The notes beneath the pieces are model-generated. The model was not told the origin of the DNA. It was given only the letters and a program-made list of their open reading frames with translations, and did no database searches. A program made the translations under genes and the position numbers. From Moniliella sp. 'wahieum' (lineage: Eukaryota > Basidiomycota > Moniliellomycetes > Moniliellales > Moniliellaceae): a stretch of 64,000 nt of DNA. The DNA lies in NCBI GenBank assembly GCA_003971905.1, contig RSEE01000068.1:1-64000 (forward strand), given 5' to 3'. Shown piece after piece: positions 3,181-56,275 of this stretch; within the stretch, counting starts at the first letter, position 1; every line of letters begins with the position of its first letter.

Positions 3181-3185
3181 AGCGT

Positions 3186-3422
3186 GATGATACCTGGAGT
3201 GAAGATGGTCTCCTCGAGGGTGATGCAATCGCACTGGTGGTGGTGGTGGTCTATAAGCCAACCATCAACGCCTACAGAGGAACATCAAGCAGCGATTCGC
3301 CCCAGGGGTTAAGCTGCGGAACAAGGAAAAACAGGAGAGAGAAGACAACGGAACTCCTATAGGCCTGAGGAAGAACTGAAGGGACGTTGACCGAAAAGCA
3401 CGTACGAGCCACTCGGTTGCTC
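3186..3422 (+). repeat. Dispersed repeat family, copy A
   Basis: This interval aligns with 9958-10205 (same strand) and 18562-18786 (opposite strand). Shared landmarks in order: a gatgatac/gatgag start, GATGCAATCGCACTGGTGG, a short GGT run, AGCCAACC, CAACGCCTACAGAGGAAC, GCTGCGGAACAAGG, GGCCTGAGGAAGAACTGAAG and a final GAGCCAC hairpin-like end. No coding potential and no clear terminal repeats were seen. Confidence 0.75.
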
Positions 3423-4286
3423 CACATTGTCTCGAGAGACTATAGGATAAGTACATCAGAGTTAGCGAACGGAGACGTTGACCGTATAGACGGTTGAACG
3501 TTGAAGGGCAAATGATCCGGGTTCTGGTGTATGTATATATGATGTAAGATGCATGGGGTGGATGAGGTGGAGCAGCCATTGTAAGAGGAAGCATGTCTTG
3601 TTCCTGCGGGTCTTGATGCATCTAATGCCCGACCTCCTTTTATCTCCGGCGCCAGCATGGAAGCTGGGACGTTGAACGTTGACGCCATAGTATACCGATT
3701 GCGAACAAGCGTTTACTCAACAAGGCCATACAACCACTAGCACACTTGCTGCACATATGGCCTCAGCGCAAGGCGATTAGCGAGGTGGCGCAGATGCGCC
3801 GTGCATTGGATCGGCTGATTGACGAAAATCCACAGTCCACACGCACGAGGGAAGGGTTCAACTTGAATGTTAAACGTTAAACGTAACGTTAACACTAGTA
3901 CGTCAAGGCAGCCATTGGCCTTAACAGTGTTGATAAGGACTTTAATGACCCCACCCGCCACACCCCCGCTTTTCCGCGGCTTTCCCCTCCGCGGCTCTCC
4001 TCCATTTAATTCCCATCCGGCACGCACGGGCCCACGTGCCACCACGGCGCGTGCTGGCCTTCCTACGGACACAAGCGCCCACACCTCGGCGCCGCTCCAC
4101 TAGCCCCATTCAGCCTCTGCTCGCCAGACGCGACAACAGGCGACAAGTCAAGATGCCTGACTCTCATCCCAGGCGAAATGTATATATGTGCGGTAGATGG
4201 CCGCCTCTCTTCGCCTCCCCTTAGGGTTAGTGCTCCACCTGATACGCACCCCGCCTCCAAGTAACTCTACAGACACCACCGTTCCC
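3423..4286. other. Intergenic upstream of the dehydrogenase gene
   Basis: No gene was recognised. AT-richer sequence with GAACGTT-type repeats (3660-3690 and 3863-3895) leads to a TATATAT box at about 4181-4187, roughly 100 bp upstream of the ATG at 4287. Confidence 0.5.
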
Positions 4287-5200: not shown

Positions 5201-7615
5201 ACCACCAAAAGGCAAAATGGTTGAGAAGCACTGGGAGGATTTGGTTGCTCTTTCATTTTCTGGCTGTGTCCTCTCCCTTGTGCCATACTCCTTCCTGTGG
5301 ACTCAAGACCGTACCCTCATCTCCTTTCCCTGGTGTATAGTGCGTATACACGTAGTACCTCTCTGTAGTAGCAGCAGCGTGAGACCTTTATTATAAGCCT
5401 CTTGCCTTACCTGTCGCATCCAGAAACCATCCCATCAACGTTCGTCCCATCTTGTATTCAGAGTTCGGTGTGATATGCATGTAAGGCAACCTCCGCATTT
5501 TTTTTGCAGGAAGAAAGCACCATCACATTTGGTATCTGTATACTACCAACAGCGAAGTTCGAATGCCCTCCCAGTCTAGAAAAGCCTACATCTCCCCGCC
5601 GTTGTGTGTTTCCTGTGTTTCGCGCGAGTCCTCCGTACTGAGTATTTATTGTCCGTTCGACCACATCCAGTTGTGCTTCTCGTTGTCAGAAGAGTAACAT
5701 GACTCATGGCATGTGACAGGCCTCATGCATGACGCCGCTGCTGGGAGCCTATGCGGTCCGGTTCCACGTCCTGTAGCTAGATAAGGTTATCGACCATGCG
5801 CACCAAATTGCTCTCCTATTCCGGTGGGGGGAGGGGTCTGAAGAACGAGGAAAACGCCATAGATTACTTAGTACTGCCAGCTGCGCGATCACCTCGCTGG
5901 CAAATTTAGTTTCACCCTGCCTCACGGGTTTCGCCCTGTGCCCTGTGCTCTGTCTCCTGTGCCGTTCTTCATTCCGCCTCTGCTCTTGTTTCTTTCCCAC
6001 GAACAAGATTGGCACATGCGCTGACTTGGGTCTGCGCTCTGCTCTCGTAGGCTTAACGCAGTTGTCCCTCGACTGTTCTGAGTGAGAAGAGTGAGACCAC
6101 CACGTTTCCCTGGGCCTTCTGCCTCATCACTATTTCATTAGTCACTTCGAAACGTCGTTACTTTTGCGTGGAAGACTGATACTGGCCGGTGAAAGTCTTC
6201 TAGAAAGCATCGCTACAACCCGCTTGCTTGGATTGGGGCTGGCGAGGTAAGCCGATGTGGAGATATTTTGCTTTGCGGGGTTCCATTCTAGAATGCGACC
6301 GAGTACTCCGACCAAGGACACTGGGCACTGCGAGTTACTGAGCGCGTGGAGTCCGTCGAACGTTGAACGTTGAACGTGAATGTTAAAAACTACGTACACG
6401 CTGGCCATTGACTAGCTATTGACTGCAGAAGTGTTGCATGTTGAGTACTGAGTAAGACTGAGTTAGCCATACTGAGTACGTTGGTGTTTCCCTTCGAGCT
6501 TCACTGGCTTAACCCGCCCCTTGGCTGTCCCCAGGCTGCGCCTTAGTAGGAGAGGTGGCGTGGAGACAAAGGGTGGCCAGGGGCAAAGGGCGAGCTTGCT
6601 CTAGTCGCTCGGTCCCCAAGGCCTAAGGGGCCTAAGGCCTAAGGCCTAAAGCCTAAAGCCCAAGGCCCAAGGCCCAACACGCACGAGCATGCTGCCATGT
6701 CACAGTCGCTAACCCCGACCTGCGTGATGCGTGACCGGTGACTGGACAAGCGCGCGCGTGACCCCAACGTCTTCCCCAGCTGGCCTAGCTGGCCTAGCCC
6801 CGCAGTTGGAGCTTGTGAGAGGTGTGGCCAGTGAGCGATTGGTGGGGTCTTGGCGTTCTGAGGCCTAGGCCTCAGGTCTGGGCGAACCATTGCATTCCCC
6901 AGGCCTTGGAGCAAGGTTGGACTTCTGGGTTGGTAAGCCCCTAAGGCCTAAGGCCTAATCAGGGTAACATGTAACGCGCAAGGTGCACCCAATCCCATCC
7001 CCTGGTTGGCGTTTCCCACCTGGTTTCGGCTGGCCTGTGTAGTCAGTCCCTATTAGCGGCGAGCCTCCTCGCAACGCTGCCCCCTACCCAACCACGCTGT
7101 GACATGTGGCAATGTGACATGCTAGTCACATTTGGCACCAGGCCGATAATCGATAATCGATAAGGCCTGCCCATCCGCCAAGCAGGTCTGAGGATTAGGC
7201 CTGAGGGCCTGAGGGTCTGAGGGCCTGAGGGGGCTGGGTTGGCGCTACTATCGTAAACGTGAGTCGAGAGCACAAGGGTTGAATTGAAGTTGAAGGTCAC
7301 CTGGGCGGGGGGGGTGGGCGCACGGCTGTCTGGGACTTGCGCCGGGCATCCCTGTGCGCCAGCCTATCGTACTGCTTGCGGGTACCCATCCTCGATCCGG
7401 GCCGCCGCATCTGCCCGGCGGGTCCCATCCGTACGGCGAGAGCGAGTGACTAGGCCACGCTTGCACTGGGCTCGTCTATAACCCCTTCCCCCCGCTTCGT
7501 CAGCCCGCTCACAGCCCGCAAACAAAGACACAGCATGGTTCGTAGTGCGCGCCAGGAGCGAATCCTGGCCGGGGGAAGAAGCAGAAAGGGAGCAAGGGAC
7601 AAGGGAGGAAAAGAG
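5201..7615. other. Intergenic with heptamer repeats, no gene recognised
   Basis: The stretch lies 3' of the dehydrogenase and 3' of the endosulfine gene. It holds AACGTTG repeats (6359-6377), AGGCCTA repeats (6618-6672 and 6943-6958), ATCGATA repeats (7145-7165) and a GGCCTGAG-type array (7195-7235). Open frames here are short and match no family I know. Confidence 0.6.
6618..6672. repeat. AGGCCTA heptamer repeat, decaying
   Basis: AGGCCT occurs at 6619-6624, 6635-6640 and 6642-6647 (the last two exactly 7 apart), then degenerates to AAAGCCT and AAGGCCC copies. Further AGGCCTA copies are at 6944-6956 and around 20549-20620. Confidence 0.8.
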
Positions 7616-9957: not shown

Positions 9958-10205
9958 TGATGATGAGATCTAGAATGATGGAGCTCTGATAGTCCTCCAG
10001 GGTAGTGCACGCACTAGTGGTGGTAGTGGTGGACTAATCAGCCAACCAACCACGCCGAAAGATGAACTTGACCATCAAGCAGCCAGTCGCCACCAGAGGC
10101 TAGGCTGCGGGCCAGGGAAAACAGAAGCGAGACAACAGTGCAATGACTCCTATAGACCTGAGGCCTGAGGCCGAGAGACTGAAGGAACAGTTGGCCAAAA
10201 CGCCA
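9958..10205 (+). repeat. Dispersed repeat family, copy B
   Basis: Diverged copy of the element at 3186-3422: it starts gatgatgag, has a GGTGGTAGTGGTGG run, then AGCCAACCAACC, GTCGCCACCAGAGGCTAGG, CAGGGAAAACAG, ACTCCTATAGACCTGAGG and ACTGAAGGAACAGTTGGCC. Confidence 0.65.
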
Positions 10206-17175: not shown

Positions 17176-17399
17176 GGGAGAGGCAGGGGCCAGCGGTGGG
17201 GCGCGGATGGGGCATGGATACGCTTGAAGCCTGATGCCTGAAGCTGTGAACGGGGGGACGGCAGCAGTAGGATGGGCTGGAAAAGGAACGGGGGTAGGAT
17301 GTTTTTATATATCGGCTGGAGGTGGGATGTGGGTGCAGAAGCAGGACGCAGCTGGTCACGCGTGGGCTGCGTCGCGACGAATCGCAGACATCGATCATC

Positions 17400-17419
17400 A
17401 TGCATCATGCATCATGCAT
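17400..17419. repeat. ATGCATC heptamer repeat
   Basis: Three exact ATGCAT units at 17400, 17407 and 17414, each separated by C. A two-unit ATGCATG version is at 45742-45754. Confidence 0.9.
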
Positions 17420-17561
17420 GGATGTTGACGTGCTGGTGTGGCACCGCGTGGCCTGCGTGACCTGACGCGTGACGCGTGACGGAGACACGGGGGTTGCGAG
17501 GGGGTGGGAGCGGTGTGGGATGGGCAACTGAAGTAATGACACATGTACAGCATAGGCCTGC

Positions 17562-17615
17562 AGCTTCAAGCTTCAAGCTTCAAGCTTCAAGCTTCACGCT
17601 TCAAGCTTCACGCGT
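17562..17615. repeat. AAGCTTC heptamer repeat
   Basis: AAGCTT at 17568, 17575, 17582 and 17589 in exact 7-bp register, then a variant CACGCTT unit, AAGCTT at 17603 and ACGCGT at 17610, still in register. Confidence 0.92.
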
Positions 17616-17763
17616 CACGCCCCTCTGTTTTGGATTGCCTGGCTCTCCGATCTGAGATGCGATCGTGAGATCCGACGTGTGACATGTGACGCACGACTGC
17701 CGGTGGGGAAGGAAGGGCAAAGTGATCGATGAGGCTGAGGTTGATCAAGTCGATGAAGTCGAC

Positions 17764-17820
17764 GAAGCTTGAAGCTTGAAGCTTGAAGCTGAAGCTTGAA
17801 GCTGAAGCCTCAAGCTTCAA
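17764..17820. repeat. AAGCTTG heptamer repeat
   Basis: AAGCTT at 17765, 17772 and 17779 in 7-bp register, followed by slipped GAAGCT copies and closing CAAGCTTC. The orientation of the spacer base is opposite to the 17562-17615 array, so the two could fold together. Confidence 0.9.
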
Positions 17821-18561
17821 ACCCTTCAATGCCTCAGGCCTCATCGACCTCATCGATCATCTGTATCCCTGAATAGCATTTTCGGTTGTACTCGCAGCCC
17901 TACATGTTCGCACAGTGTGCGCAACACGCGTATATACTCGTAAAGCGGTAACCGGTAGCGCCTAAAGCGTAACATGTAACACACGTTATGCAAAGCGCGA
18001 AACTCGTAACGCGTAGTGGCGTAACGCGCAGTATCTATACTCGCACAATGATTAATGAATGAACGGAAGATAATTTAAGCCTTGGGTAGAACTTAGACCG
18101 AAAAAACCTAAGCTGGTAACCAGTAAAGCTAGTAACTGGTAACCGGCAACCGCAACCGAACAAATCCTAGCATCGGGGAACGCACGTAGTACTAAAGTAC
18201 CCCTATGCGTGCATCCTATTCATCGGATCGATCGACGATCGGCCACCGGCTCAGCGCTCATGCGCTCATCGATCATCTCAAAATTCGCCGGAAGGTCGCG
18301 TAGCATTTATTAATTGCTGTGCGTTTTTACGCGTCTAAGTAGATATATACCAGGTGTACTAAGTAGTGCGTTAACCGGTTACCGTAACCCTTCTGCATCG
18401 ATCCAAATAAGCGAGCGTCACGCGTTCCGCGTCACGCGCCACGAGTCCGTCAGGGGAACCGTAGCACAACTATACCCTCAGGCCTCTTTCACAACAGATC
18501 TCACATTGCAGGATACGCGGCATACTTCTCCTGTCGTTCACCTTCTCGTGCGTTAAATGTT

Positions 18562-18786
18562 GAGCCATCGGGTGGCTCGTGCTTTGGCCAATGTCCCTTC
18601 AGTTCCTCCTCAGGCCTGGGGGTTCCGTTGTTTTCTCCATCTTGTTTTTCCCTGTTCCGCAACTTAGCCCCTGGTGGCGACTCGCTGCTTGTTGTTCCTC
18701 TGTAGGCGTTGCTGGTTGGCTTAGACCACCACCACCACCAGTGCGATTGCATCACATTCGAGGACCATCAGGACTCCAGGTCTCAT
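18562..18786 (-). repeat. Dispersed repeat family, copy C (inverted relative to copies A and B)
   Basis: Reverse complement closely matches 3186-3422, including GATGCAATCGCACTGGTGG, AACGCCTACAGAGGAACA, AGGCCTGAGGAGGAACTGAAG and the terminal GAGCCACCCGATGGCTC hairpin. It is closer to copy A than copy B is. Confidence 0.8.
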
Positions 18787-20102
18787 CACAGGCAATAACA
18801 GGGCCGAGCAGGTCTTGTCACTGGAACAACTCAACGCTCGTATAAGAGCGCAGCGGAATAAGGGAGGATTCGTATACGGATCAGACTGTGGATATTGAGT
18901 TCGACAGAAGTCGTTGTGCCCTGTCGTAGAGATGCTGGACTTCGACGGCCATAATGGCTGCCCGCCGGTTTAGAGGAAACTGGAAAACCCAAACTGTATA
19001 TATAACGGACTACAGGCACGTGTAGCGACGTACTACGTCAGGCAGACGGGGCAGTCTGGACTACCAAAAGCAGATGAGCGAGAATGAGAGGTAACCGGTA
19101 ACGAGTTGAGCGACGAGGTGGCGGTGGTAGGGGGAACAGAGGAATGCGCCACAGGGGTGTCTACTATACGAGCGGCTTACAACAATTGGAACGATGTGGA
19201 GGCGCCACGGATAGGACGCGCGGTGCAGGGTACGCCTAAAACAAACCTCTAACTAGGGCAGTCCCACTCACAACAACCACGGTGCAACACACGCTTGTAA
19301 TCTTGCTCGTTCCCAGCGTCTATGCCGCGTTGTCACGAGAGCCGGCGCCCCAATTTAAAGTTGCTTCACCTCGTCTCTACCCTTCCGGATCTGCCAGTGG
19401 CGTTCAACGTTCAGGCTCAATCGACCGTGAAGAGTGCCGTGCCAGCCGTCCTTCTCTAAAACGGAAAGCATCCCTGTACACTGTGGGCCGCCCCCCAGTC
19501 CTCGGTTCTCGCCTATATGACAACACCTTTCAGGTTTGATCCACCTGGCTCTGCTGTCCGTGTGGTGTACTGTGCAACGTTTGGGGCCTGTTGTCCTTGA
19601 TACAACTATGTTTTGGCAGAAGAGAGAGGCCAATAACACTGGGGGTGCAGCATAGCGATGATGACTTCAAACTATGCCTTGCCCCATAACCGCAACGCAT
19701 CGACGTAGATCGGGAGTCGGTATCGGCATCGAAAAGGACGGTTGCTTCGTAACGCGTAAGGTCATGTGGCGGCAGGCTCATCCTGCGCGGCTGCCTATAG
19801 AATGGTGCGGTGGATGCAGGATGGGCTTGAGTAAAGCTAGTAATCCTTTTGCGAAGGTCGGCGCTGATGTCATCGCTCGCGGTGTCTGTGCCTGGGGGGC
19901 GGTTACCGGTTTATGGTTACTGGGAGTCGCCCCCCTTAGGGAGAAGGCACGGGGGCAGCCTGCAGCCTGCCTGCCGTCTTGGGTTCTGAAATCGCATCTT
20001 CCGTTGTGCATGTGATGTCCTCCCGGCGATCCTTTTTCGCCAAACTGCTGCTGCCGCTGTCGTGACCATGTGACATGTGACTGAAGCGTCTGAGGGCCTT
20101 AG

Positions 20103-27569: not shown

Positions 27570-30230
27570 GCGCAGGGCATGGCCAGCGACGGACGGCGGT
27601 TGCGTCTGCGGGGGCGGGGCGGGGCGGGGGGGGTTGTATGGGCGGACATGGCGGGGGAGGGGGAGGATGGCGGAGGGGGGGCGGGGGCAGGGGCGAGGGC
27701 AGGGGCGAGGACGAGGGCGAGGGCGAGGGCGAGGGCGCCGGGTGTGGTGCTGGGGAGGCGATGTGGTTGGGCAGGTGCTGGCCCAGGCACTGCGACTGGC
27801 AGCGACGGCGTGCCCCCAGCAAGAACGTGCGGAGGCGAGGGGAGGATCAAAGCCATTCAATCTTCAAGCTTCAATGGCGGCGGATGCGCTAAGCCTGGCC
27901 CGGAAGAGGCAGCCCTGATCATCCATCCACATCACCCGTCCTCCACAAACCAGCCATGCCACACTGCCGCCCTGCCCGCTCGCCCCCCCCCAGCGCCGTA
28001 TCACGCTCACGTCGCGCGTCACGCTTGAGCTTGGAGACACAGCCAGCGTGTGACAACCAGGGACATGCGACACTGGCCCAGGCGCCTTTCGGAGAGACGC
28101 TCTGAAGCTTGAAGCTTGAAGCTTAAGGCCAATGAAAAACATTCCCATTCGCCGTCTCTTGAGAGTGCCGCCTGCAGCATCGCCTCCTATGCCTGACATC
28201 CAACGGTTTCCCGCGCCGCAGCACCTCTGCAGACTCCAGCCCCCCTATCATCGTCTATGCCATGTCTCGTGGAGGGGTCCCCAAAAGCCATATAGTGCGA
28301 TAGCAATGTAACATCGCATCATTGCCCAGCCGTCAGACCGTCGGATACTGGTTGCAATCTGGCGGCGTAGTAGGACCAACAACGAAGCTGGAAGCAGGCG
28401 CGTGCGGATTGCTGGTGCGCGTTCCATACTCGTCTGTTGGCAGCTAAAAACCACACGCAGATACTTACGCCCGCGGGTCGCAAGCATCCGCCGCCGCGTG
28501 CCCAAGTCACGGGGCCGCGACGGCCGCGGACGAGGGTCGGCGGTTGGAGGAAGATTCCATTGCATGTGGAGCACGCCGAGGAACACCAAGGACTATGGCA
28601 GTGCGATGGGCTACGGCAGCGGCGACCACCAGCAGACACGCTGGCTTGCGCACGTGCGACGAGTGCTGTGCAGTGCCCAGCCCCCGTGTGGTGCAGCCTG
28701 CTCGCACCTCTCCATCCCAGGCCGCATCGGTGCAAGTCCCCATCGTCCACAATGCAATGTTCACTACGCCAGGTCGGCTCCACGGTCACGTGCCGCTGCG
28801 GTGGGTGCGCGGGCCAGCACGCACTGCAGGGGCTGGCAGACAGAACACGTGCGCCCCGGTTCATCCATACCGCCCATCCCCCGCCTCCACCTCTTTCCCC
28901 CACATCTCCTCCACCGCGCCGGGTTGCCCATCTCTAGCAAGCATATCTCCTCTCCGAACCGCACCGCCGAGGCTTGGTTTTCAACGCTTTTCTCGAGGGC
29001 CTGAGCGCAGTGAACAACCAAGACCTGGTCCACTCGCGCAGAACACAACGTGGTCAGGCCAGTGGATTGGAGCACAAGTAGCTCTCCGCATTATCCTTCA
29101 CTTCATCTTCCTCTTTCGCACGTGGGAGGGCCGCCATAAACCCCCGCCTCCATCACCGTCTTCACCCTGTTGCATCGTACCAGCCCACCCAAGGATTGGG
29201 TCCCCAAGGTGGGTGCACTAATGAGCAACTCCGTGAGTCCTCACACACCGCGATAATTGAATTAGCGCAGGAGAAGCCGAATGGGTCGGACGGATGCGAT
29301 GCGAGGCGGTAGAGGGACTTGGGTGCCTCCTGAGCTGCTGCACGTGCTACAGCAAACCAATCCATCCATGGCGTGCTCAGGGTCAAGGGGCAGGGGCAGT
29401 GGCAGCCAAACCCACTGCGGACGCAGTGGAGAATCGTATGACGCCGCCAGAGACCGAGCAGGACGATCTTTCAACATCAGCAGGCTGTCCAGCGAATCCA
29501 TCTGGACACGGCCCCGCCCCGACCGCCTCCAGGCCAACTTGGAGCAGAAAACAGGAGGACCTATGGACCCAGAAAGCAGGAGGAACGGCGACAGTCGCTC
29601 CAACTCGCTTCCATTGACAAGCAAGCCAAGGTAGCAGGAGGCCGTAACACGGGACAAAACGTGCCGTGAATGGAAGAACCAGGTATGCCCCTCCGTCAAT
29701 CCGTTGAACGTTGACAACCAGAGTGCTTACGTTGTGAGGAGGTTCACCGGAGGCACCATGCGCCAGTGCCCAAATTGCAGGGCCGGATAGCTCCACTGCT
29801 CCTTTTGGGACGGCACTTGACTCACGCCCTTGTTGTGACCACCCTCTTATTCCTTCGGCGGTCTGCCGACTAGCATGCAGCTACGGCTTAAATTCGACAA
29901 ACTAATCCACCTCGCTTGGGCCATGTGTATTGGAGACAGGTAACCGAGCCGCTGGTCCCCTGCCTGCCAAACTGGAACCGGGCCGGTCTATATTGGAGGA
30001 TGGGGCACAGGATCAGGGAAGCCGATGAGGAAGTACATTGTACAGGGATGGAAGCAGATGCTACCAACGAGAGAGGGAGCAGGGAAGGGCATCAGGGTAA
30101 GCGGAGGAGGGGGGAGGGGGAGGGGTACATATTACCAGAGACGATCGCCCCGAATCCAAGTCAATGGGGGGGCACCTTGCTCGCGTCCTTCCATCAACCA
30201 GAGCAGGTTCAAGATCTAGGCTACGGCGAC
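27570..30230. other. Long intergenic region, no gene recognised
   Basis: GC-rich low-complexity DNA to 27860, then AAGCTTG repeats (28105-28124). From 28140 to 30150 there are only short open frames on both strands with no motif I recognise. This is an unusually large gene-free space between a cyclin and histone H1; an unrecognised gene could lie here. Confidence 0.45.
28105..28124. repeat. AAGCTTG heptamer repeat
   Basis: AAGCTT at 28105, 28112 and 28119 in exact 7-bp register. Confidence 0.9.
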
Positions 30231-33700: not shown

Positions 33701-33808
33701 CAACAAAGGTAGTCCTCCTGTGCTGATCAAAGTGTTTTGTGGCATGGGAAGCCGCGAAAAATCAGAGTCCATGGTGGGGCCAAACAAGCAAAGGTTCTTG
33801 CAGCAAGC

Positions 33809-34873
33809 TTAGAGCAGCGTCTCCCCCAGGGCGGCACGAACAAGCGAGCAACCAATCGCGACGGTCGCATCGGCGTGCTCGGGAGACAGAGCGGGGTTGA
33901 CCTCCATAATGTCCATGGCAACCAAGCTTCCGTCTCGTACAGTGCCTCGCAGATGTAGTGACCCTCACGGAACGTAAGGCCACCTCGGACGGGGGTGCCC
34001 GTGCTGGCGGCCACAGTGGGGTCCATAGCGTCAACGTCAAAGGAGAGGTGGATGGGGCGGTCCCGCTTGCCCTGCACACCGTCGTTGAGGTAGTCGAGCG
34101 CCTTGTCGACAACCCCAATGCCATACTTGTCCACCTCAAACATAGAGTAGGCCTTGATGCCGTACTCACGCAGGATCTGCTTCTCCCCAGCGTCCACATC
34201 ACGCAGCCCAATAAACACGAGGCGCTTGGGGTCGAGGAACTTGCCTGCGGGACCGGGGAGCCACTCAAAGGGTGAACCAAACTGTCCTTCAGTCCAAGCA
34301 GGAAAGAAACGGGACAGCCGTGCAGATTGCCACTCTCGGTCGACTTGGGCGTGTTGATGTCGGCATGAGCATCGACCCAGATCAGCCCAGCGTCGGGGTG
34401 AGCAGTCAAGGTGCCAAGCACCGTACCCAGGCCCTAGTCGCGGAAAAGTCAGTACGGCTGTAGAATACACAGCGGGCAAGGGGAGCACGCGAGGGGTGGG
34501 AGGGTGGGAGGGGCGTACAAGGCTATGGTCGCCACCGAGGGTGACGGGAATCTGGCCTTGGGTCGCGTGGCTGGCAACCACTTCGGCGACCTTCTTGGCG
34601 ATCGTCGACACGGTACGGGGCTTCTTCATGCCGTCCAGGTCGGTGTCCTGGGCCACAAATTCCGGGGGCGCAAGGGCGGCAAAGTCCTGGTGGCCTTCAA
34701 ACTGGACGTGCCAGCCAAGCTGCTCGAGTTGAGCGGGAAGGCCAGCGTTGATGAGAGCATGGGGCCGTGCTCGACGCCAGCCTTGCCCTGGCCAGCAGTG
34801 CTGGGGCAGCCGATGAGAGCAGCAGTGTTGCTCTTGACGTAGCGGAGGTGGTGCTGGGGGGAGTCGGCGACAT
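33809..34873 (-). CDS. Arginase, frameshifted
   Basis: Hydrolyses arginine to ornithine and urea; a cytosolic binuclear Mn2+ enzyme (EC 3.5.3.1). Metal-binding motifs in order: GGDHS (about 34522-34540), DAHAD (34361-34380) and SFDVDAMDP (34018-34042). Also seen: [17 protein letters not shown] (substrate loop near the start), [54 protein letters not shown] and [18 protein letters not shown] before TAA at 33809. The intron 34434-34518 (donor GTACGC, acceptor GACTAG) sits right after GGDHS. Single-base changes occur just after the start, near 34765, near 34280 and near 33930. ATG 34873 needs one added base to enter the frame. Family length is about 310-320 aa, as here. Confidence 0.93.
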
Positions 34874-35586
34874 GGTGAGGGTGGTGGGGAGAACGGGGCG
34901 AGGGGGGAGGGGTGGAGGGGTGGGAAGATGGCTGGCGGGAGTGCTGAGCCGTGGAGGCTGAGTGGGGTTAACGTGGTTAGGCGCTGGAAGCCTCGGAATC
35001 GGAAATCAGATCTCGCATCTCGTCTGTCGCATCTCGGGTGCGACGACGGATTAAATGAGCGCGCACAGGGGCACTGGGGCAGTCTTCAGCCTCGTACTGA
35101 ATATGCCTCCGACCGGTGGCGGAGTAACTAGCAACTAGTCACGACCCAAATTAAATTTGCAAATCAAGAGACCCTGCTTCCTGAGGAGGCCTTACCAATG
35201 CAAACACCGTTGGGGCTTGCCAAGGCTCCCTTCTGCCATGCCCGATGGCCCACCACCAGGTACCTCACACATTGGTGGGGAATACGCCGTGGCTGCCGGC
35301 TATCCCGGCTATTCGCGGCCAGGCCTCCTCAATCTCTCGCTGACTGCAAACGTGTGGCTCTAGTCGGAGGCAGAGCAGGAGGGCATAGGAGGAGAGGCCA
35401 CACGATACTAATACGGGCTTGGGCTTCTAAGAAGCTTGGTTGGGAAAGAGCAAAGTCGTTCATGAAAAGGGGTGACAGGCTGGCACCCACGGGGGTAAGA
35501 AGGATCTGGGTGAAGATGGCATGAAGAGAAAGTAGGGCAAAGAGCGAGGGAACGGGATGAGAAGAACCACATTGAGAAAAGGAGGC
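34874..35586. other. Intergenic between arginase and POL1
   Basis: Arginase promoter side to about 35150, then the POL1 3' flank. No gene seen. Confidence 0.55.
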
Positions 35587-38500
35587 CTAAGCGAATGCTA
35601 CCCCTAGCCGCTTGGGCGCTGCCGTCGAACCCGAGAGGGTGATGCCAGCAAAGAGGGAACCAATATCGACGTAGCGCCTCGCGGAGCGCGAGAGCATACG
35701 GTCAACCGTCGTGTAGAGCACCTTGGCCACTCGGGCGTGCGCATGCGCAGCTGCAGCACCGCACCGGGGCCTTGTGGCCTCGGTGGAGTTGGCCACGGCG
35801 GGGAGGTCAAACAGATACTGGTAATACGAAAGTTGGGTGTACAAGTCCTTGTCCGTGTACTCCTCTACCGTCGTTCCAGGGCATCCGCGAGAACGGCAGC
35901 GCATCGCATACACCCCGGCAACCGGCAACGTAGCCCACATGCCGAGTCGGTACAGATCCGCCAACCAGCGTAGTAGCGATTGATGTGCTGCTGCATCCGA
36001 CGGTTCAGCTGAACCGCCAACAACGGCAGGCCGAGCGTCCGCTGGCAGCCAGAGCAGCGGATGCCCACGCTGTTGGCCGGGACGACCGTGGGGCCAGGGA
36101 CAAGCTGATCCTTGGCGAATGCAGGCAGCAGGCCGTCAAACGCCGTGTCGGCACGCAGGACGGGCAGTGGAAAGTAAGCTTGTCGCAGTGGCCATACCGC
36201 TGCTCGGCGTGAGCTGACTATCGAGCGGAGCAAACGCGCGCCCCTGCGCTGCCCACACGTCATTCTCACTCGCTTGGGTGTACGGCGAACATCGAGGCCG
36301 AGGCACTCGGCCAAGCGGGCGCGATCGGTACCCTCGATGCTCTCGCACAGACGCTCAATGGGGGGCAGTACTTGCAACGAGAGGTAGTACTCGAGGTCCA
36401 CTTTGAGCGAGCTTCCATCACGACGAAGGTCGTCCGGGTGGTAAGCGCGCGATGCTTGCGCCGACTTGGTCGATGCTTCCTCTCCCTCGGGAACAGTAAA
36501 GATGTACGGAATCACATCCCCAGACCGAGCAGACAGACCCTTCTCCTTCATCCGCAACGCCACTTGTACATGTGGCTGGGACTTGACGTCAGGGTAGTCT
36601 TCTGGGTTTTTACCCAGGCGCTTGTAGATGATGAATGAATCGAGTGTTTCGTGGCCCTCACGGACCTCAGTCGCCAGTGTGCGGAGGTACTCGTGGACCT
36701 CACCTACCACGGTCTCTGTAGCGTCTCCCGAGAGGATGTAAGACAGACACAACTGAGCATACGTGGTGAGTAAGGGGAAAAAATGCAGGAGAAAAAACGT
36801 ACTTGGAGGCGTCTTTGGAAAGCTGGCAGTATTCACGACGTTTCATATCCAGACCTTTGATTTCTTTGGAGCGAGTTCCATCATCCTCGACCTTGAGAGC
36901 AGCATACTTCTTCTTTTGAAGAAGGAGCATACGCTCAAACACGGCATCAATGTCGATCTCCAGCAACTTGTAGTGCTTGTTGACCGCTTTCTTGAACTCG
37001 CGTCCAATCTGCATCGCCTCCTCGTAGGTCACCTTGTTGGTGTTGATCATGACGGAATCAGTGTCGCCATAGATGACCTCAAGGGAGATCCCTTCGGCCA
37101 GCTCGCGGGTTTGCCGCAAAATCTCACGGCCTTTAAAGGTGGTCAAGGCAGCCAGAGGCCGGGCATAAAATCGAGAGTTCTCAAAACCCAGACACCCGTA
37201 CATACTGTTGGCCGTCAGCTTGAGCGCAAGTTGTTTGACGTTCCACTGGGCCAGCTGCGCCTTGGTCGCCCGCTTGTCCTTCATGAGACCCTTGACGGCC
37301 CGACGCTTGTCCACCAAGGTAGCAATGAGCGCGGGCAGCACACCTCGTTCAACATCAGACGGAGGCACATCGGGTACATCCTCTCGCGCGATGGCCTCTT
37401 CCCCTTCGCCCGTCTGTTCGACCGGACTGGGGTCTCCCTTGACCCGCTCAACCGTGGTGAAGTCAATGTTGAACTCCTGGATGATGGAGGGTACAGCGAG
37501 TTAAAGTCCATGACCAGGACGTACTTGTCGCACAGCCCGCGCTTGGGCTCAAACACCAAACCACCCTTGAACTTGTCGCGCTTGACCTTGGTCGGCGCCA
37601 CAACGCGGGCTGGGGTACGTTGAACTTGTCCCGGATGCGCTTGGCGTGCATACGCTCCCGCCCAGTAATCTTGTCGGGCAGCACGTACTTCTTGTCGTAA
37701 AAGTCATGGAGCAGAATGTACTCATTCCTCTCTGCGCGCCCACCGTTCAAAGTCCGGTTCCAGCTGTTGCCGGCAATGTTGGTGAGTTGTTTTGTGAGCG
37801 CGAGCACTTGCAACTTGGCGGCAATGGCCATGACGAGCCAGGTGTCCATCTCGCAATGGCTTAGGAACAGACAGATCTTGGCCGGATCCAGGAACGCGCC
37901 CGCCGTCTCATCAGGGTCAATCTCGTCGCGCGCAAGATGCCAAGGTGGGTGGACGCCATCTCGGTAAGCGACCATGAGGTGGAGGCAATCATGCTCTTTC
38001 CACAGTCCGAGGAGAGATCCATCAACAACCGGCCGGCCATGATGTAGATAGCCGAGTTGGCCGTCAGATTCGGCCATGCTCGCCGGCGCATCCGACCGAC
38101 GCGCGACCATTGGTCCGACTTCAGCTCCCGCATCCGATGCAGCAGCACGTCCAGAGACACCCAATCATGTCGTGGCCCACAATCACGTCGGGATCTTGCG
38201 CTTGGATGTGGGCCAGAAGCCCATTGAGCAGCCCACGTTCATAATTGACCGCCACAACCTTGGAGCGTTGCCGACTGACCAACTTGTCAAATCCGTCGGG
38301 GAAACTCCCCCCAATGGGTCGAACAAAACTCTTGATAGTTGAGGGTCGCTTATCAAACGGACGATCGTCGAACTTTCCATTGAGTGGCTTATCGTCTTCC
38401 AGCGCATAGTCGGACCACGTTCGTGCCGATGCACACAGCACCTCGCGCTGATTCGCCTTAAAGTTCACCACGGTGCGCACGCTCAGGGACATGATCCGCA

Positions 38501-40500
38501 GCGGCGGTGTACCGATGGTGCGTCGGGCATGGAGGCCGTGACAACCGAGACGGATTTGGGTTCGTCCACTGACAACTCGGTCTGGCACCAACTGACCACC
38601 TCGTCACCTGTATGAACCGGCTTACCCCGAACCGCACGGGGGGTAGGATCTCGAGCCGGAGCCAGCAGGGGCCCATAATTCGCCTTAAGAAGGAAAAGCT
38701 CAAATGCCGATGCGCCAGTACCAAACACACGAGCAATTTGGTCTCCCCCTCCGACTTGCCCAGAGCCTGAGCAATCGTCTCTTCCGTCAAATCGTAAGGC
38801 AGTTGCGTCTCATCAAATCCGTACGCACTTTGAGGTAGCGAGATTGGCGTGGCACCTCGGGCAGTTCAAACGCATAGTCACGCAACACCCAGGTTGTGAT
38901 GAACGACTTGATTCCAAATTTGGATCGAAGGGCATCAAACTCGTCAAATACTTCCTCCTGCCATGGCTGCTCGTCCTCTTCGTCAATCTCCATATCATCC
39001 ACATTCTGCCCCCGACGTTTCTTGGCACGACGAGCCAGCTTGTCCTCCCGGATCTTACGGGCCGCCTCGAGATCTAGAAGGAGGTTAGTACAATGCGACT
39101 CAACGCGGAGAGAGACACGAACCCTGGTCTTGGATCCCGTTTGGCAACACATATAGACACCGCCGCATGCCCTCGACCGTGACGCAGCAGCTCTCCCACT
39201 CCTGGGTGGTCTTGGAACGAATCTTGCCAATCAGGTGGATTTTGTCGCCTTGCTCATAGTGGTCCAGCCAGTAAAAGTAAACACCTCCGTCGGACTCGTA
39301 GTACGCCTCGCGCACCTTGGTATCACGGTCATCCAAAGCAATCTCCGTCATTGGATCCTTCTTGCAGGGACGGGGGACGGAGAGCGGGCGCGCTGCGGGT
39401 GCGTGCGCGTGAGCCTTGAGTCCTGCATCCTCCTCCATCAAGTCTGCCTCCCAATCGTCGTCGTCCATGATGAGCGCCTCATGGATTTGGCGCCAGTCAA
39501 TGTCGAGTTTTGCTGGTGCAGCCGACGCTGGTGCTGCCGTTGCTGATGCGGTGGCAGGAGCAGAAAGGTTTGGTCACGGGCGGGCGTGACTGGGTCGTGG
39601 CGCGCTCAAATTTGCTTTGTGGCTGTACGGCACGCACGCCTTCGTCCTCGCTATCGTCCTCGTCAAAGACGGAGACCTGAGGCTGGACTGCGGCTGCGAC
39701 CGCATCCAATGCGGCGGGAGTAGCTTGGGTTTTGGCGCGTTTTACCGTCGCACGTTGAGGGGGAGGCACAGGGGCCTCGTTGAGCCAGCTCAGTTCATCA
39801 TCCCCAGTAGGCGCCGGCTGCATTATCCGTACCCTGGGAGTGGAATTGCCCTTGGGTGGGCTCTCGAGCATAGGATCGCTACTGGGATGTGGGTCGCGCT
39901 TGTGACGCTACTTGATGGACTGACAGGAGCGCGACGAGCGGTCCGGAAGCGCTCGAACCCACCAAACTCGAGAGGGCGCGCTCGCTTCTGACCCTGCAAG
40001 GGTCGCACGATGGCAGCGGGAGGGCCTCCTCCTGGGCATCCAGACCATTGAGAATGTTGTTCATAAACTCGTCCTCATCCTGTTGGATGTTGGGCAACAG
40101 GTGTCGTGCCAAAGGGTGCGCGCGCGGGCGGGGGGGTTGTGGGTGTGGGCTGCAGGCTTCTTCTGCCTGGGGGCCGATGAGAAGTAGTCGCCCTGCTGGG
40201 GGAGGGTGCGCTTGGCCTTCTTCTTGCCGGTACCAAAGTGGCGACGATACTCTTCCTCCTACTATCCGCGCCGTCGCTAGCCCACTCGTCTTGCCCATGG
40301 TCGACATAGCCACTGCCATCGTCGTCCTCGATGAAAGTGTCGGCGAGCACACGGCCACGCACATAGCTGTTGTACTCGGCCTCGGAGACCTCGTCGTAGA
40401 TGCGGCCGTCTTCGTCCGAGTCGCTGGTGGGGAGGGCATGGCCCTTGCGCCGCGCAGCAAGAGCCTGCAGGGCGGAGGCACGGGCAGCGCGAGAAGACAT
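35587..40500 (-). CDS. POL1: DNA polymerase alpha catalytic subunit, heavily frameshifted
   Basis: Family B replicative polymerase that extends primase RNA primers (EC 2.7.7.7), nuclear. N-terminus [19 protein letters not shown] and [16 protein letters not shown] (Pol alpha N domain), then [43 protein letters not shown], an intron 39074-39122 (donor GTTCGT, branch TACTAAC, acceptor TTCTAG), [29 protein letters not shown] (inactive exonuclease region) and [19 protein letters not shown]. Catalytic motifs: A, DFNSLYP (37489-37508); [13 protein letters not shown] (about 37190-37225); C, YGDTDS (37054-37071). Motif C retains both Asp. An intron near 36800-36740 follows KDASK. C-terminal zinc modules: CSGCQRTLG (about 36040-36060) and a later C-x-C region. 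More than ten frame changes. Start ATG 40500; stop 35587. Confidence 0.95.
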
Positions 40501-40579: not shown

Positions 40580-40618
40580 ACGCGTCCCAGTGGGCGTCAC
40601 GCGTCACGCGTCACGCGT
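40580..40618. promoter_or_regulatory. Four ACGCGT (MCB) sites in the POL1 promoter
   Basis: ACGCGT at 40580-40585, 40599-40604, 40606-40611 and 40613-40618, about 80-118 bp upstream of the POL1 ATG; the last three form a 7-bp-register ACGCGTC array. POL1 is a classic MBF target in yeasts. Confidence 0.65.
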
Positions 40619-44450: not shown

Positions 44451-46397
44451 GGCGAGTGGTGGTCAGAAGCGGGGTGGATGGGGGATGTGGCGAAGACAGG
44501 TAACAGAGATGATCTGGATGAACATGTTGCTCAGAGTGTGGTGGCTGTAAGAAACCGACGGGTGTGAAGCCGGAGGAAGAGAGTGCTTCAAGCTTAGAAA
44601 GGGCGAGGAAGGAAGGAAGGCCGAGAGGTGGGAAAGAAGGAAAGAGAGGAACGTGTTGCGGTTGCCCAGCGTGTGGTGCGTCAGCATCTTGTAGCAGCTA
44701 CGAGTAAAACCCCATACCAGGCCGGATCGGCTGCTCCTATAGGAGCGGGTGTACCGCTCTTCATCTTGCCGGTTAGGGCCACTGCCAGCGCAACCACCAA
44801 AGTGTCCAGTGGCTAGTGGCAAAAGAAGCCTGAAAATCACTTGGGCCCCTCACTCCGCCCAAGGCGAATGGGCACTGTGCAACCTCGAACCAGATTGGAC
44901 ACTGGCGGGATGCGGCATCTCCCGGCCGGGGCATGAGGTGCAAGAGGGCCTGGGATCTGAGACCAGAGGGCGTGGCCGGGCTCAGGAGCAGGGCCAGTGT
45001 CCACACTGGAGGCGCCCCCGCACCGCTCCGATGCGGAGGACGCGGAAGAAGCCGGCAAGCACCCGGTACGCCTTGCGACGCCCTCGGGGGTCGTGTCAGC
45101 ATGTCAGATCGTGTCACTGTCACTTGCCCAGCCACTGTGACATGTGACATGCGACTAGTGACAAGGCACTATTAGTCACTGTCCTGCAGACGAAGCTTCA
45201 AGTCGATGAAGTAGCGCCACCGGCGGTAGTAGTGGGCCTTGGGCCGTTTTGCCTTGGTCCGCGCTTAGCGGTTCCCGGGTACCAGTTGGACGAGTGACGC
45301 GCATTGACGAGTTACGCGTTACGAGTGACTAGTTGCTAGTTGCTAGCTACTGGTTAGGCCGTAGGGTGAAGCGCTACACCCACACGCCAAGGTCTGCCAG
45401 GGTGCCGGATACATTGGGTGGCTCGGGGAGGGGCAGAGGGGCAGTGTGTTACACCCCGGCGGGTGGGAGCGGCAAGCCGCAAGCCACCAACTGGCGCTGC
45501 TGGCTTGTCGCATGTCGTGGCGCACGCTGGCAACAGACGCATGTTGCGGCTCCCGCCGGCGGTGTGCCCTGGCACACCCTGGTGCCGAAGGGTCTGAAGG
45601 GTCCCGGACCCAAAGCTAGCATGGCGTCGCGTGGGACGCAGCACTGAGTACTGACGCCGGCGGCGACGGCGGAATGGAGAAGTTGCAAGCTGCAATTGCA
45701 AGCTGCAACAGGGAGATAATCAATGGTCGATGATGTTGATGATGCATGATGCATGATGGTTGGAAGAGGCAGACGGTATTCAGTTGAAGCGCTGCGCAAA
45801 AATAGTATCGGCGTCCAGCTTCCAGTCGCCCCAGTCGCCTCCAAACCAGGGCCCAGTTCCGACCACCCCCTGGCGTTGGCAGTGGGCAGCTGGGGAGCAG
45901 CACTTCTGAAAAATGTGTATTGTTGTCGGCTCAGCCTGAGCGGCTCAGCGCGCGGCCAGCAGAAACGGCTCCTCTTTTTCCCCATGGCCCACACGTCTCG
46001 CGGCTATTATCCCTGTGACTTTGCATGCTCTCGCTGTACTTCAAGCTCTTCAATGCGCGTGAACTTCAAGCTTCCTTCGCTCATATCTTAGCGCTTCGTA
46101 GCTCTTCCCTCTCCTGAGGCCTGAAGCCTTTTCCGACAGATCCGCCATCTTCACACGCCATCGCCATCGTCCTGCCAGCAGCACGAAACATGGCCACACT
46201 AAAGCGCAGGTCCAAGATTCTCAGGCCTCAACGGTTGATCGAGGCCTCATCGGCTACAGCAACTGCCAGCATGCGCCAAACACACCCTACCATGTGTATA
46301 CATGTCACACCACGATCCCACGATCTATCCTCGATGGCCGCCCTTGGTCGCCTCTCCAAGCGCCAAGCTCCGCAAGACTCTACCATTTGGGCCGGAC
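44451..46397. other. Intergenic, no gene recognised
   Basis: Contains ACATGT/ACATGC motifs near 45138-45152, ATGCATG repeats (45742-45754) and no coding signature. Confidence 0.5.
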
Positions 46398-46637
46398 TGT
46401 TGGCCTAGGGAGCCGGACGGGCAGAAGGATGAGGAGAAGGTGATGGATTGGAGCCAGAGTTGGGTCTGGGTACAGAGGCATCTATATAGGAGGCTGGACT
46501 AGGCACAGGGACAGTGAGTCACACAGGAGAGAGTGCAGGGCACAGGGACAGTGACACGCAGGGACGTCAGCGTGGAAGCCGATGGAACCGAGGCGAACCT
46601 GGTCTACCGACTGGGAGCCAGAGGATCACAGTCAACA
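46398..46637. repeat. Left LTR, 240 bp
   Basis: Identical to 47558-47797. Contains a TCTATATAGG promoter-like box at about 46491 and an internal duplicated GCACAGGGACAGTGA. Confidence 0.85.
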
Positions 46638-47358
46638 CCCCCGCTGGCCAGGGAACCCGGAGACATCGGTTGTGGGATGAGCTCCTGCCAGTGGATGTAG
46701 AGAGGGGAGGACTTGAGTGGCAACCGGGACGAATGGCCTGGAGTTGTGCATGGCCACACGACTGGCCTACACCCCCGCTGTCCAGGATGACACCTGAACG
46801 AGCCGAGCGCTTGTGGTTGGTGTATTGTGCGACCGCCAGATGCTTGTAGAAGTCTTAGAAGTAAAAGTAGTAGGGGTTGCGCCCCGAAGCGATTTGGTGG
46901 GCAAAAGTAAAAAGCACCAGTTATAGGTGTAGTGAGAAGAAAATTGGAAACTTGGAGTAAATGCGGTCCAAGGTCGTTTGGCATCAAAATTGGATGCGTT
47001 TGGTAGTTGTTTGGTTCCGCATGCCTGGTGCCAGTGGGGTCCATTGGGCATGGGAAATGAACGGGCGCTATGCGTCAACCGTCTTGATCTGTTTGGGTTC
47101 TCTTTGTTGTTGAAAAAGAGGAGTGGAAGAAGTTGGGTGACCACCCCCCCCATCCTTTCCCAGGTGCCCCGGATGAATTGGCAATCCGGGGCGTGTAGCC
47201 GTGGGTGGGGCACTTGATGAGCAGCCACCCCCGCTTCTGCGATTCGCCTGCGCCGTTTTGTCGTTGGAGGAATTTCGTCTCGTTGACGATACCCGACACG
47301 TTTTGTTCCGTCGTGTGTTGTCCCTAAAAATCATTGCCCCATCTGTGGGGGACGAGTG

Positions 47359-47431
47359 TGCCGATTGTGGCGGTAGTATGCCGATTGTGGCGGTAGTATG
47401 CCGATTGTGGCGGTAAGGTGCCGATTGTGGC
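47359..47431 (+). repeat. 20-bp tandem repeat inside the LTR element
   Basis: The unit TGCCGATTGTGGCGGTAGTA is repeated about 3.5 times, the last copies slightly altered. Confidence 0.9.
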
Positions 47432-47557
47432 GGGTGGTGTTGTTGGGCGGGAGGACGGGTGTGTCTTGTGGGCTTGGCGGCTTAGCTTGGGCTTGTAGGC
47501 TTGGGGGTGGGCTTGCTTGAAGAGCGCTCCCCTTCCGGGGGGATCAGATTGTAGCTC

Positions 47558-47797
47558 TGTTGGCCTAGGGAGCCGGACGGGCAGAAGGATGAGGAGAAGG
47601 TGATGGATTGGAGCCAGAGTTGGGTCTGGGTACAGAGGCATCTATATAGGAGGCTGGACTAGGCACAGGGACAGTGAGTCACACAGGAGAGAGTGCAGGG
47701 CACAGGGACAGTGACACGCAGGGACGTCAGCGTGGAAGCCGATGGAACCGAGGCGAACCTGGTCTACCGACTGGGAGCCAGAGGATCACAGTCAACA
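47558..47797. repeat. Right LTR, 240 bp
   Basis: Identical base for base to 46398-46637 by eye, implying a recent insertion or gene conversion. Confidence 0.85.
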
Positions 47798-47862
47798 TTC
47801 ACATGTCACACCAACTTATCCCACCGCACCTGTTACGCAGTCCGGGATCAGTATCGTAGATC

Positions 47863-47875
47863 ACATGTCACATGT
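47863..47875. repeat. ACATGTC heptamer repeat
   Basis: ACATGT at 47863 and 47870 in 7-bp register. Confidence 0.8.
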
Positions 47876-47989
47876 CACAGGGCCTTCCCTCTGGCGTTCT
47901 GTAGTTAGCCCAAGCTTGCTTGTGACATGGATCACTCTCGCGCAGTGTCACAAGCGATATGGTTAGAGTTAGTAGTTACTCAAGTACTC

Positions 47990-48032
47990 AAGCTTCAAGC
48001 TTTAAGAGCCTCAAGCTTCAAGCTTCAAGCTT
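47990..48032. repeat. AAGCTTC heptamer repeat
   Basis: AAGCTT at 47990, then 48013, 48020 and 48027 in 7-bp register, with a decayed AAGCTTT copy between them. Confidence 0.88.
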
Positions 48033-48294
48033 CAACATCTTGGGTGCTCTCAGACTGAGCACTGCTCAGCCAAAGTGAGCGCAGCTGAGCTGACTGAGTT
48101 ACTGAGCTAGTAACTCGTACGCAGTACTCAAGTACTCAACGTCGGCGCGTCAACGTATCAACCGAGTTCCCAACAGAGCTTTGTGGTTAACGACATTAAT
48201 AAAGGGAAGTGCTGAGGCCCAGTGCAAGTGTGCAAAGTCCCAGCTGACGGTCTGGAAAACTAGCTTTGACGCCCAAGGTGCGTGAGTGTGCAAA

Positions 48295-48389
48295 GGCAAT
48301 GTGCCCGAGCGGTTAAGGGGATTGATTCGAATACGCTTCGAACTATCAATTAGGCTTCGCCTGCACAGGTTCGAGTCCTGTCATTGTCT
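48295..48389 (+). tRNA. tRNA-Ser (CGA) with a 13-nt intron
   Basis: Acceptor stem 48295-48301 pairs with 48382-48388 (one G-T). D arm CCC/GGG encloses GAGCGGTTAA. Anticodon stem ATTGA (48321-48325) pairs with TCAAT (48346-48350); loop TT-CGA-A, anticodon 48328-48330, intron 48332-48344 placed one base after the anticodon as is standard. Long variable arm AGGC-TTCG-CCT as in serine tRNAs. T arm ACAGG-TTCGAGT-CCTGT (48365-48381). A T-run (48389-48395) gives pol III termination. The discriminator would be T, whereas serine tRNAs normally have G; a lost base is possible. Confidence 0.93.
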
Positions 48390-55170: not shown

Positions 55171-56275
55171 TGGCCCCTGGGGCCTGGCTGAGCTCGGCGG
55201 AGCCAGCGCTGATCCCGAGCAGCCTCAGGCAGGCGACGGGCCTCAGGCTCAGTCTGGGCACACTCAGTCTGAGCAGGTCTGAGCCAGCCGCCAAGATCAG
55301 CGACGACAGCAGCGATCAGTTCCACGGACAAGACGGCATCGGATTGTGGGGATGCGAGACGAGTTTGGTTGGTTGGTTGGTCGGAATGGCTGACACGCCC
55401 GGATGGGATGGTACTGGGGAGGCCTGAGCCTGAGGCGACAGTTGATGCGCCCGGGGCCGATGGCCACCAGCATCGCTGGTACTCGGACATTCCGTTCTCA
55501 GGCGTTAGGTCTTAGGTCTTTAGGCCTTACTAGTCAAACTTGCAGCTTCATGTGCTTGCCTCTGCAAGCGGCGCCTCCGGCCTGGCTTGGCGGCCGCGCT
55601 GGCGGGACGGGGAGGTTGAAGATGAAGGAGACGCCGACGCTGGGAACTGGAAACAAAAAAGAACTCCCTAGAAGGGATGACCAGTGACTAGTGAGCGGTG
55701 ACCAGTCGATCAGACCTACAAGAGCGAGCTGGGCAGGGCAGCACGCGCGACCAGCCGCGGACGGGGAACGGCGCTGCTCAGGCGCTCAGCGCGCTCAGCC
55801 CAGGAAGCAGGCAAACGCCGGGCGTGTCTCCGCGGGAGGGAGGATGCGCATGCCGCTCATGCATCACATGTCACACATCAGCGTCCTACCTCAGGTGCGC
55901 GTTTAGTTGGGCAGGGCGCCCGGGCAGCGAGCATGCAGCATGGGCGATCGGGCACAGGAGCAGTGCTGCGCACGGCTGCGCGCCCGCGCATCCCCGGCTG
56001 CGGCTTATAACTCAGTATTCACGCACAGCAGCCCACGCGCTGCGCTGCCCCGCCCATCACACACTGCCCCTGCGCCCGCCTTGGTCTGTGCGCCCTCCTG
56101 CTGCCGCTCGCTGGCCGCCTGGGGCAGGGCGCGAGGTATAAGTATACGCTCGCCACCCTCTCCCACCCGCGCTTCACACGCCCTGCGTTTTGTCTTTGCA
56201 CCGCTCAGCCCATCCTCGTTCCACCCCACCCACCACCACCACCACCACCACCACCACCACCACTACCACCCCGCC
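55171..56275. other. Upstream region of the MARVEL gene
   Basis: No other gene seen. A GGTATAAGTATA box at about 56130 lies 145 bp before the ATG, and a CCA repeat (about 56230-56270) fills the 5' leader. Confidence 0.5.

Follow-up and report, generated by a model that had tools for sequence, protein, structure and literature searches.

Seven-base palindromic scars at TNA triplets in a Moniliella genome: possible footprints of hairpin-sealed DNA breaks

The closest described counterparts of the insertions discussed here are footprints of DNA breaks with hairpin ends. In V(D)J recombination and in Transib-type reactions, a blunt hairpin is formed on the flanking end and short P-nucleotide palindromes of even length result. 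Hairpins opened by Artemis are cut preferentially two bases from the tip. Target duplications made by Transib and RAG measure 5 bp, whereas the geometry of the scars reported here is one of 7. A different kind of palindrome is found in HIP1-like families, which consist of one fixed palindromic word. Among DNA transposons, P-nucleotide palindromes that arise when hairpins are opened and the ends joined are documented for Ac/Ds, in yeasts and plants alike (PMC5873905), and for TcBuster (PMC3499496). Basidiomycetes harbor transposons with 7-bp target duplications as well, namely hAT7 of rust fungi and Kyakuja of Laccaria (PMC12730594).

The locus compared here is the window, i.e., the whole analyzed stretch of 64,000 nucleotides, together with samples of the assembly it belongs to. 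The scars follow the rule TNAwx to TNAwx-yz-TNAwx, in which yz is the reverse complement of wx, or the mirror form of this rule. They resemble the footprints of Ac/Ds and TcBuster by having duplicated target copies with palindromic bases at the joint, of the kind known as P nucleotides (PMC5873905; PMC3499496). The duplication length of hAT elements, usually 8 bp and 7 bp in hAT7 (PMC12730594), is compatible too, the restarts of the scars reaching seven bases from the tip and then dropping. Unlike in the scars, where the palindromes are even and 2 nt long, hAT palindromes center on the complement of the element-adjacent base and vary in length (PMC5873905). The 7-bp target duplications of hAT7 and Kyakuja in basidiomycetes form a further likeness (PMC12730594); a matching element was not found in the 264 kb searched, nor a domain over its cut-off in the assembly. 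In contrast to HIP1-like families, there is no one fixed word, as 16 different cores are used. With microsatellites the scars share tandem period-7 arrays of varying unit number, but they differ by a templated seeding insertion, a single period and a near-compulsory T.A frame. As judged from the sequence, the scars probably are of a kind already known, i.e., hairpin-type break-repair footprints, and their genome-wide, T.A-centered two-base form appears to be new. Among the open-access papers listed by text searches, none describes such a genome-wide signature in its title or at the start of its abstract, which is no proof of its absence.

Similar-looking arrays occur in other genomes. The 20-base AAGCTT heptad pattern (AAGCTTC/AAGCTTG arrays) is present in Pseudomonas and several other bacteria, in at least 120 stretches, and in 58 IMG/VR contigs, where the reversed pattern is present in 2. 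No core apart from AGCT rises above background, either in the 120 bacterial loci listed (30 of 528 sites, 5.7%) or in the viral contigs (36 of 815 sites). From their sequence, these arrays look like a different, sequence-specific phenomenon.

Insertion rule, geometry and abundance of the scars

The scars and chains of scars in the window (no strand is assigned to them) and one gene block are as follows.

17398-17414: TNA-palindrome chain, core TGCA twice (array 17396-17419)
17463-17479: chain, core CGCG twice
17566-17596: chain, core AGCT four times
17601-17617: mixed chain, AGCT then CGCG with one TCA in common, possibly two events at one TNA
17770-17819: three neighboring AGCT chains (17770, 17790, 17810)
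17834-17859: single scars GGCC (17834) and TCGA (17850; TCATC.ga.TCATC)
6364-6373: chain, core ACGT
6633-6649: TAA-type chain, core GGCC twice
6942-6958: TAA-type chain, core GGCC twice
7147-7163: TAA-type chain, core TCGA twice
28103-28119: chain, core AGCT twice
40597-40613: chain, core CGCG twice
45740-45756: chain, core TGCA twice
47861-47877: chain, core CATG twice
48011-48034: chain, core AGCT three times
48126-48139 (from 48123 in the initial annotation): GTAC array, ACTCAA.GT.ACTCAA, as printed in the sequence; its class is enriched
55857-55873: mixed chain, TGCA then CATG
33727-38591, minus strand: gene block (arginase, DNA polymerase alpha), chain-free in the cluster listing

The initial annotation, of which a direct check found the sequence present in 15 of 15 coordinate ranges, had read such loci as period-7 microsatellites built from a self-complementary hexamer A-wxyz-T and one spacer base. 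As a whole, this reading is partly supported. Tandem arrays do exist, but in 166 of 210 clusters a single core is flanked by two TNA triplets, and the unit is therefore not in the first place a microsatellite; 40 clusters have two cores and 4 have more. Likewise, the palindromic hexamer is present, but the unit of the event is the TNA with two flanking bases and a two-base mirror copy, from which the palindrome results as a by-product. Different cores following one another in one 7-bp register are genuine (10 of the 44 multi-unit clusters, the other 34, by subtraction, repeating the same core). The GTAC array reads as described, but does not form a separate period-8 class, as ACTCAA.GT.ACTCAA is a one-base-longer form of the same rule.

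The expected preference for palindromes at period 7 was borne out. Perfect tandems of at least two copies were listed for each period and the unit was scored as palindromic when all but one of its bases formed a self-complementary sequence. Of 64 perfect tandems at period 7 in the window, this holds for 36, whereas the 7-mers of the window itself predict 7.4 (binomial p about 7e-18). In an independent sample of 200 kb, composed of 20 stretches of 10 kb taken at a fixed position from each of the contigs C1-C20, it holds for 57 of 133, vs. 13.4 expected (p about 1e-22). These p-values are generous in treating units as independent; the effect is nonetheless large and replicated. An excess comparable to that at period 7 is found at none of the other periods surveyed (3-12 in the window, 3-14 in the sample), the lone low p-value belonging to period 13 (1 of 4 units, p 0.016, in the 200-kb sample). 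The A...T frame with its single spacer is genuine as well: in sites of the form T[N]A-xxxx-T[N]A in which both triplets have an identical N, xxxx is palindromic in 262 of 456, where 6.25% is expected. Markov simulations of orders 1, 3 and 5, with 20 runs each, average 6-15 palindromic sites with a maximum of 20, and do not reproduce the pattern. The mutational signature is strong and real, and the pooled 200-kb sample repeats what the window shows.

The frame is carried mainly by two types of triplets. Palindromic cores make up 218 of 370 sites for TCA/TGA and 44 of 86 for TAA/TTA, while no other triplet that has more than 20 sites exceeds 14%. All 16 four-base palindromes occur as cores when counted on TCA/TGA sites. 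Inverted arrangements are few but exceed 6% (8 of 49 for TCA..TGA and 10 of 35 for TGA..TCA). Single sites are mostly asymmetric. In TCA-type sites, the period-7 match continues for two bases past the TNA on one side only in 28 (1,3) and 13 (3,1) cases, on both sides in 8 and on neither side in 10. This mostly one-sided extension indicates that the typical scar is TNAwx-yz-TNAwx or its mirror. Of the 409 sites with C on both flanks, about 83 match no further and are probably background.

To describe the geometry, direct repeats around T.A were scored for tip position, mirror length and restart point, reading both strands and counting units within arrays more than once. A single geometry stands out, with the tip two bases after the A and a mirror of two bases. 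For this geometry, 302 of 398 repeats that restart at the T have the mirror (24.9 expected), as do 21 of 63 that restart one base before it (3.9 expected) and 25 of 52 that restart two bases before it (3.2 expected). A restart one base after the T is weak (20 of 144, 9.0 expected), and three bases before the T there are too few repeats to call enriched (1 of 7, 0.4 expected). Tips at one or three bases and mirrors of three or four show at most weak enrichment in small classes, the larger counts among them being the same sites restated (a mirror of three with restart at N, or a mirror of one with restart one base before the T). Where mirror length can be distinguished, i.e., in the 8- and 9-bp forms, it is two bases. 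Odd palindromes are at most weakly enriched (15 of 87, 5.4 expected), and plain 7-bp duplications that lack a mirror are not enriched at T.A (32, vs. 36 for A.T). Among eight other centers the mirror is found in 3-12% of repeats, C.A being the highest (21 of 176), and the main class counts 303 against 7.0 expected from the 15 other centers pooled. Insertion rule, polarity, T.A center, two-base mirror and the drop beyond seven bases are all properties of the sites as observed. This geometry suggests that the break spans seven bases centered on the TNA, and that one end gains two mirrored bases whereas the other usually loses two.

The scars are abundant but unevenly spread. The pattern AAGCTTSAAGCTTSAAGCTT has 1050 matches in the whole assembly and its reversed control has 0; the pattern reads identically on either strand, and the count includes matches that overlap within longer arrays. 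The window, with 80 clusters in 64 kb, is denser than the sample, with 130 in 200 kb. Multiplying the 0.65 clusters per kb of the 200-kb sample by 69.5 Mb, with both haplotypes counted, gives an estimated 45,000 scars for the assembly. Excision footprints are normally studied at reporter loci, whereas here this number is found in one assembly. The uniformity of the scars permits target preference, stagger and the presumed hairpin-opening position to be read directly from the sequence, and they show that microsatellites can be seeded without a pre-existing repeat. Mapped against genes, the scars are depleted: 1 of the 80 window clusters lies inside the 10.7 kb of Pfam-supported blocks, where 13.4 are expected.

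Insertions caught between paralogues and alleles

Insertion events can be observed directly between copies of an LTR-like element of about 850 bp, of which 40 copies with pairwise identities of 85-100% were aligned. The alignment resolves 14 different alleles that carry insertions of at least 7 bp, 8 of which obey the rule or a close form of it. Six of the eight have a repeated sequence of five bases: TCAAG.ct.TCAAG, TCACA.tg.TCACA, CCTCA.gg.CCTCA, TAAGG.cc.TAAGG and double insertions at TGTCA and TGAAC. The repeated sequence has seven bases in the remaining two (CATGACA.tg.CATGACA and GCTCAGC.gc.GCTCAGC). The double insertion at TGAAC measures 13 bp in the alignment, but its exact strings are two 7-bp units. 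Each derived string is confined to one copy. For seven events, 34-38 of the 39 other copies have the empty site with at most two mismatches, and for TCACA 8 of 39 have it; for neither TCACA nor TGTCA did the LTR-like copies yield an exact empty site. Double-unit events (copies L061 and L052) account for 2 of the 6 period-7 events, in both cases with the same core. The other 6 of the 14 insertions are off-rule, including one of 7 bp (L057). No rule case of 7 bp was present in 22 rows of a 230-bp solo-LTR family read by eye, and the indel spectrum of a local self-BLAST, with too little aligned DNA, had no clear 7-bp peak.

Alleles provide a second record. Two pairs of loci, L085/L086 on contigs C69/C13 (9 kb, 94.9% identical in the alignment and 97% per aligned base) and L087/L088 on contigs C1/C25 (5.9 kb aligned, 95.5% identical), align as alleles, which indicates that, in these two places at least, both haplotypes are present in the assembly. 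In L087/L088, one allele carries TGACT.ag.TGACT and TCATT.aa.TCATT and the other carries CTCACG.cg.CTCACG, and for all three scars the opposite allele has the exact empty site. The TCATT and CTCACG scars lie about ten bases apart on opposite alleles, near GAACCATTCATT, and form a natural double experiment; in the automatic alignment these two neighbors masked each other. A TGCA array in the same pair has two units in one allele and three in the other, showing that arrays also change by whole units. The 9-kb pair L085/L086 contains no 7-bp indel, and at 8 bp it contains a near-rule array change and one ambiguous TAA-ACGT-TAG case. Expressed per substitution, there is about one scar per 90 in L087/L088 (three in about 5.9 kb) and about one per 170 in both pairs together (about 15 kb). 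At another site of L087/L088, TTACCGGTTA in one allele corresponds to GTACCGGGTA in the other. Both outer bases differ in concert, a pattern that joint conversion of the two flanking triplets would produce.

Source of the breaks and rival explanations

Hairpin-type repair had been named initially as a process that could create palindromic units, and it finds support in the insertions between paralogues and alleles, which are templated on the neighboring two bases. Self-complementarity whatever the sequence points to strand pairing rather than to a base-reading protein, while the fixed T.A center and the seven-base limit point to the involvement of a protein. By analogy with known hairpin reactions, a hairpin end opened two bases off its tip could account for both signals. 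We consider it moderately probable that each unit is the repair scar of a hairpin-ended break, that the breaks stem from excision of a transposon with 7-bp duplications and that slippage or re-hits build the arrays. The breaks most likely originate from a DNA transposon that duplicates 7 bp of its target and is then excised, or from a related nuclease.

The sequence of events would be as follows. An enzyme, most likely a cut-and-paste transposase, would prefer NNTNANN and make 7-bp target duplications, and excision would leave two copies of abTNAwx around the excised element. The flanking ends would be sealed as hairpins, which an opener would cut 2 nt from the tip. One end would retain the opened strand and thereby gain two P nucleotides (TNAwx+yz, with wxyz as self-complementary end), whereas the other would be trimmed, mostly back to the T. 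End joining would then yield TNAwx-yz-TNAwx with a net gain of 7 bp, or of 8 or 9 bp with less trimming. Any sequence would become a palindrome in this way, because wxyz would be the tip of the opened hairpin. Later slippage, or new hits at the same TNA, would extend some scars into arrays. We infer the hairpins, their opener, the transposon and slippage as the main array route. At one scar per about 90-170 substitutions, even rare excisions would accumulate, and a handful of mobile copies might suffice. Independent insertion and excision would not give so many same-core doubles, which calls for a subsequent step of slippage or recutting.

A candidate element was sought in 264 kb, i.e., 0.4% of the assembly, a sample that low-copy mobile elements would escape. 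In these 264 kb, inverted ends at 7-bp duplications are about as frequent as chance predicts (1 hit vs. 0.9 expected), with 3 vs. 1.1 expected for exact 6-bp inverted ends and 61 vs. 43.5 for 3-bp ends; CA..TG ends inside 7-bp duplications number 18 pairs vs. 13.1 expected. The best of 256 end-dinucleotide pairs, AT..AC (19 vs. 5.7, p 8e-6 uncorrected for the 256), was rejected as an element signal: the 19 pairs have no longer ends in common, and 8 are left when one per word and locus is counted. An excess of inverted ends for duplications of 4-6 bp is largely due to AAGCTT arrays pairing with one another.

Domain searches of the assembly, run exon by exon, gave no match over the cut-off for hAT, KDZ, MULE or Plavaka, and of the controls only that for MULE matched. 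The hAT domain PF05699 reached at best 19.7 bits, below the cut-off of 21.4, at one locus with two alleles; PF14372 and PF14291 (hAT) and PF18758 (KDZ) had no match in the assembly, and no control genome matched any of the four. The sub-threshold match, to the hAT dimerization region, has an internal stop and adjoins a ketopantoate hydroxymethyltransferase gene (C69:124946-125089 and C13:751845-751988). Being a single locus in two haplotypes, it was dismissed as a mobile family. The match is probably due to chance. The 200-kb sample has 118 ORF candidates that do not overlap, and the 20 of them that were examined contained no transposase. The footprints are, moreover, unusually uniform, real excision footprints being more varied. 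Uniform footprints, even palindromes, frequent doubles and the lack of an element or a transposase over the cut-off keep two alternatives to transposon excision alive, i.e., a transposon-free nuclease and template switching.

The first of these, which we hold to be unlikely, is a resident nuclease, e.g., a domesticated transposase, that would cut at TNA with a 7-base stagger and whose hairpins would be opened 2 nt off the tip. As the site would survive repair, it could be recut, and arrays would arise in one go. Such a nuclease would explain the double-unit events, the two different cores on one TNA in 10 clusters and the missing element and transposase match over the cut-off. However, no such enzyme was found in the assembly, low-copy mobile elements would equally escape the 264-kb sample, and, to our knowledge, known transposase-type hairpin formers act at element ends and not on bare target DNA. 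It is similarly unlikely that a resident V(D)J-like activity has written the tens of thousands of self-complementary insertions in both haplotypes and is the main source of period-7 short tandem repeats.

A slim chance is given to template switching during replication, in which a strand would copy the opposite strand for two to three bases after TNAwx and realign upstream, once or more. The same product would result, several units at once with ease, as in the double-unit events observed; yz could be read as yzT, the last T of which could realign on the T of the TNA. Nevertheless, the complementary centers G.C, C.G and A.T should then serve too, yet the mirror is found there in 3-6% of repeats. 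The uniform two-base mirror of the 8- and 9-bp forms also speaks against template switching, which moreover gives no reason for the drop beyond two bases before the T and would have to act at empty sites that have no repeat to prime it.

Ordinary slippage, in which hairpin-forming loops would survive better and favor palindromic units, is highly improbable. Existing arrays do differ by one unit between alleles, as for the TGCA array, and slippage appears to operate on such arrays. As the origin of the scars it is already contradicted: first-generation events begin at a single TNAwx, with no repeat to start from, and the effect is limited to period 7 and nearly to T.A. Selection for spaced protein-binding sites, suggested initially together with a palindrome-binding protein, is extremely improbable, for although TGAC-like words recur across many units, neither proposal fits the use of all 16 cores, scars that are single-copy and scattered, also in LTR-like copies and as unique alleles, and the depletion from genes.

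Other features of the window and the assembly

Gene fragments in the window, apparently interrupted by introns, encode parts of DNA polymerase alpha, arginase, Pds5, a cyclin and proteins with TPR and FF domains. The nearest PDB match of the arginase is 5ynl, which we take to be the enzyme from Glaciozyma. In the assembly sample, the alpha and beta parts of tryptophan synthase lie in one frame. In a profile search of the assembly, chlorophyll-binding/light-harvesting protein and RuBisCO large subunit were absent, while the controls matched. A plastid or green-alga origin was rejected on these grounds, and the fungal-looking genes make a basidiomycete host likely.

Repeats other than the scars are present as well. 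The 230-bp solo-LTR family is represented in the window at 18558-18789, 3185-3428 and 9961-10203 (TGTTGAG...CTCATCA), the third copy being only about 70% alike. Several of its copies are flanked by 5-bp duplications, and about 40 copies are found among the assembly matches listed. At 46397-47797, two identical 241-bp repeats ending in ...CAACA lie 0.9 kb apart and probably belong to a young, short LTR element; between them lies a 20-bp tandem repeat (47355-47433). Finally, a tRNA found with Rfam at 48295-48389, and missed by ARAGORN, is 95 bases long and therefore probably carries an intron.
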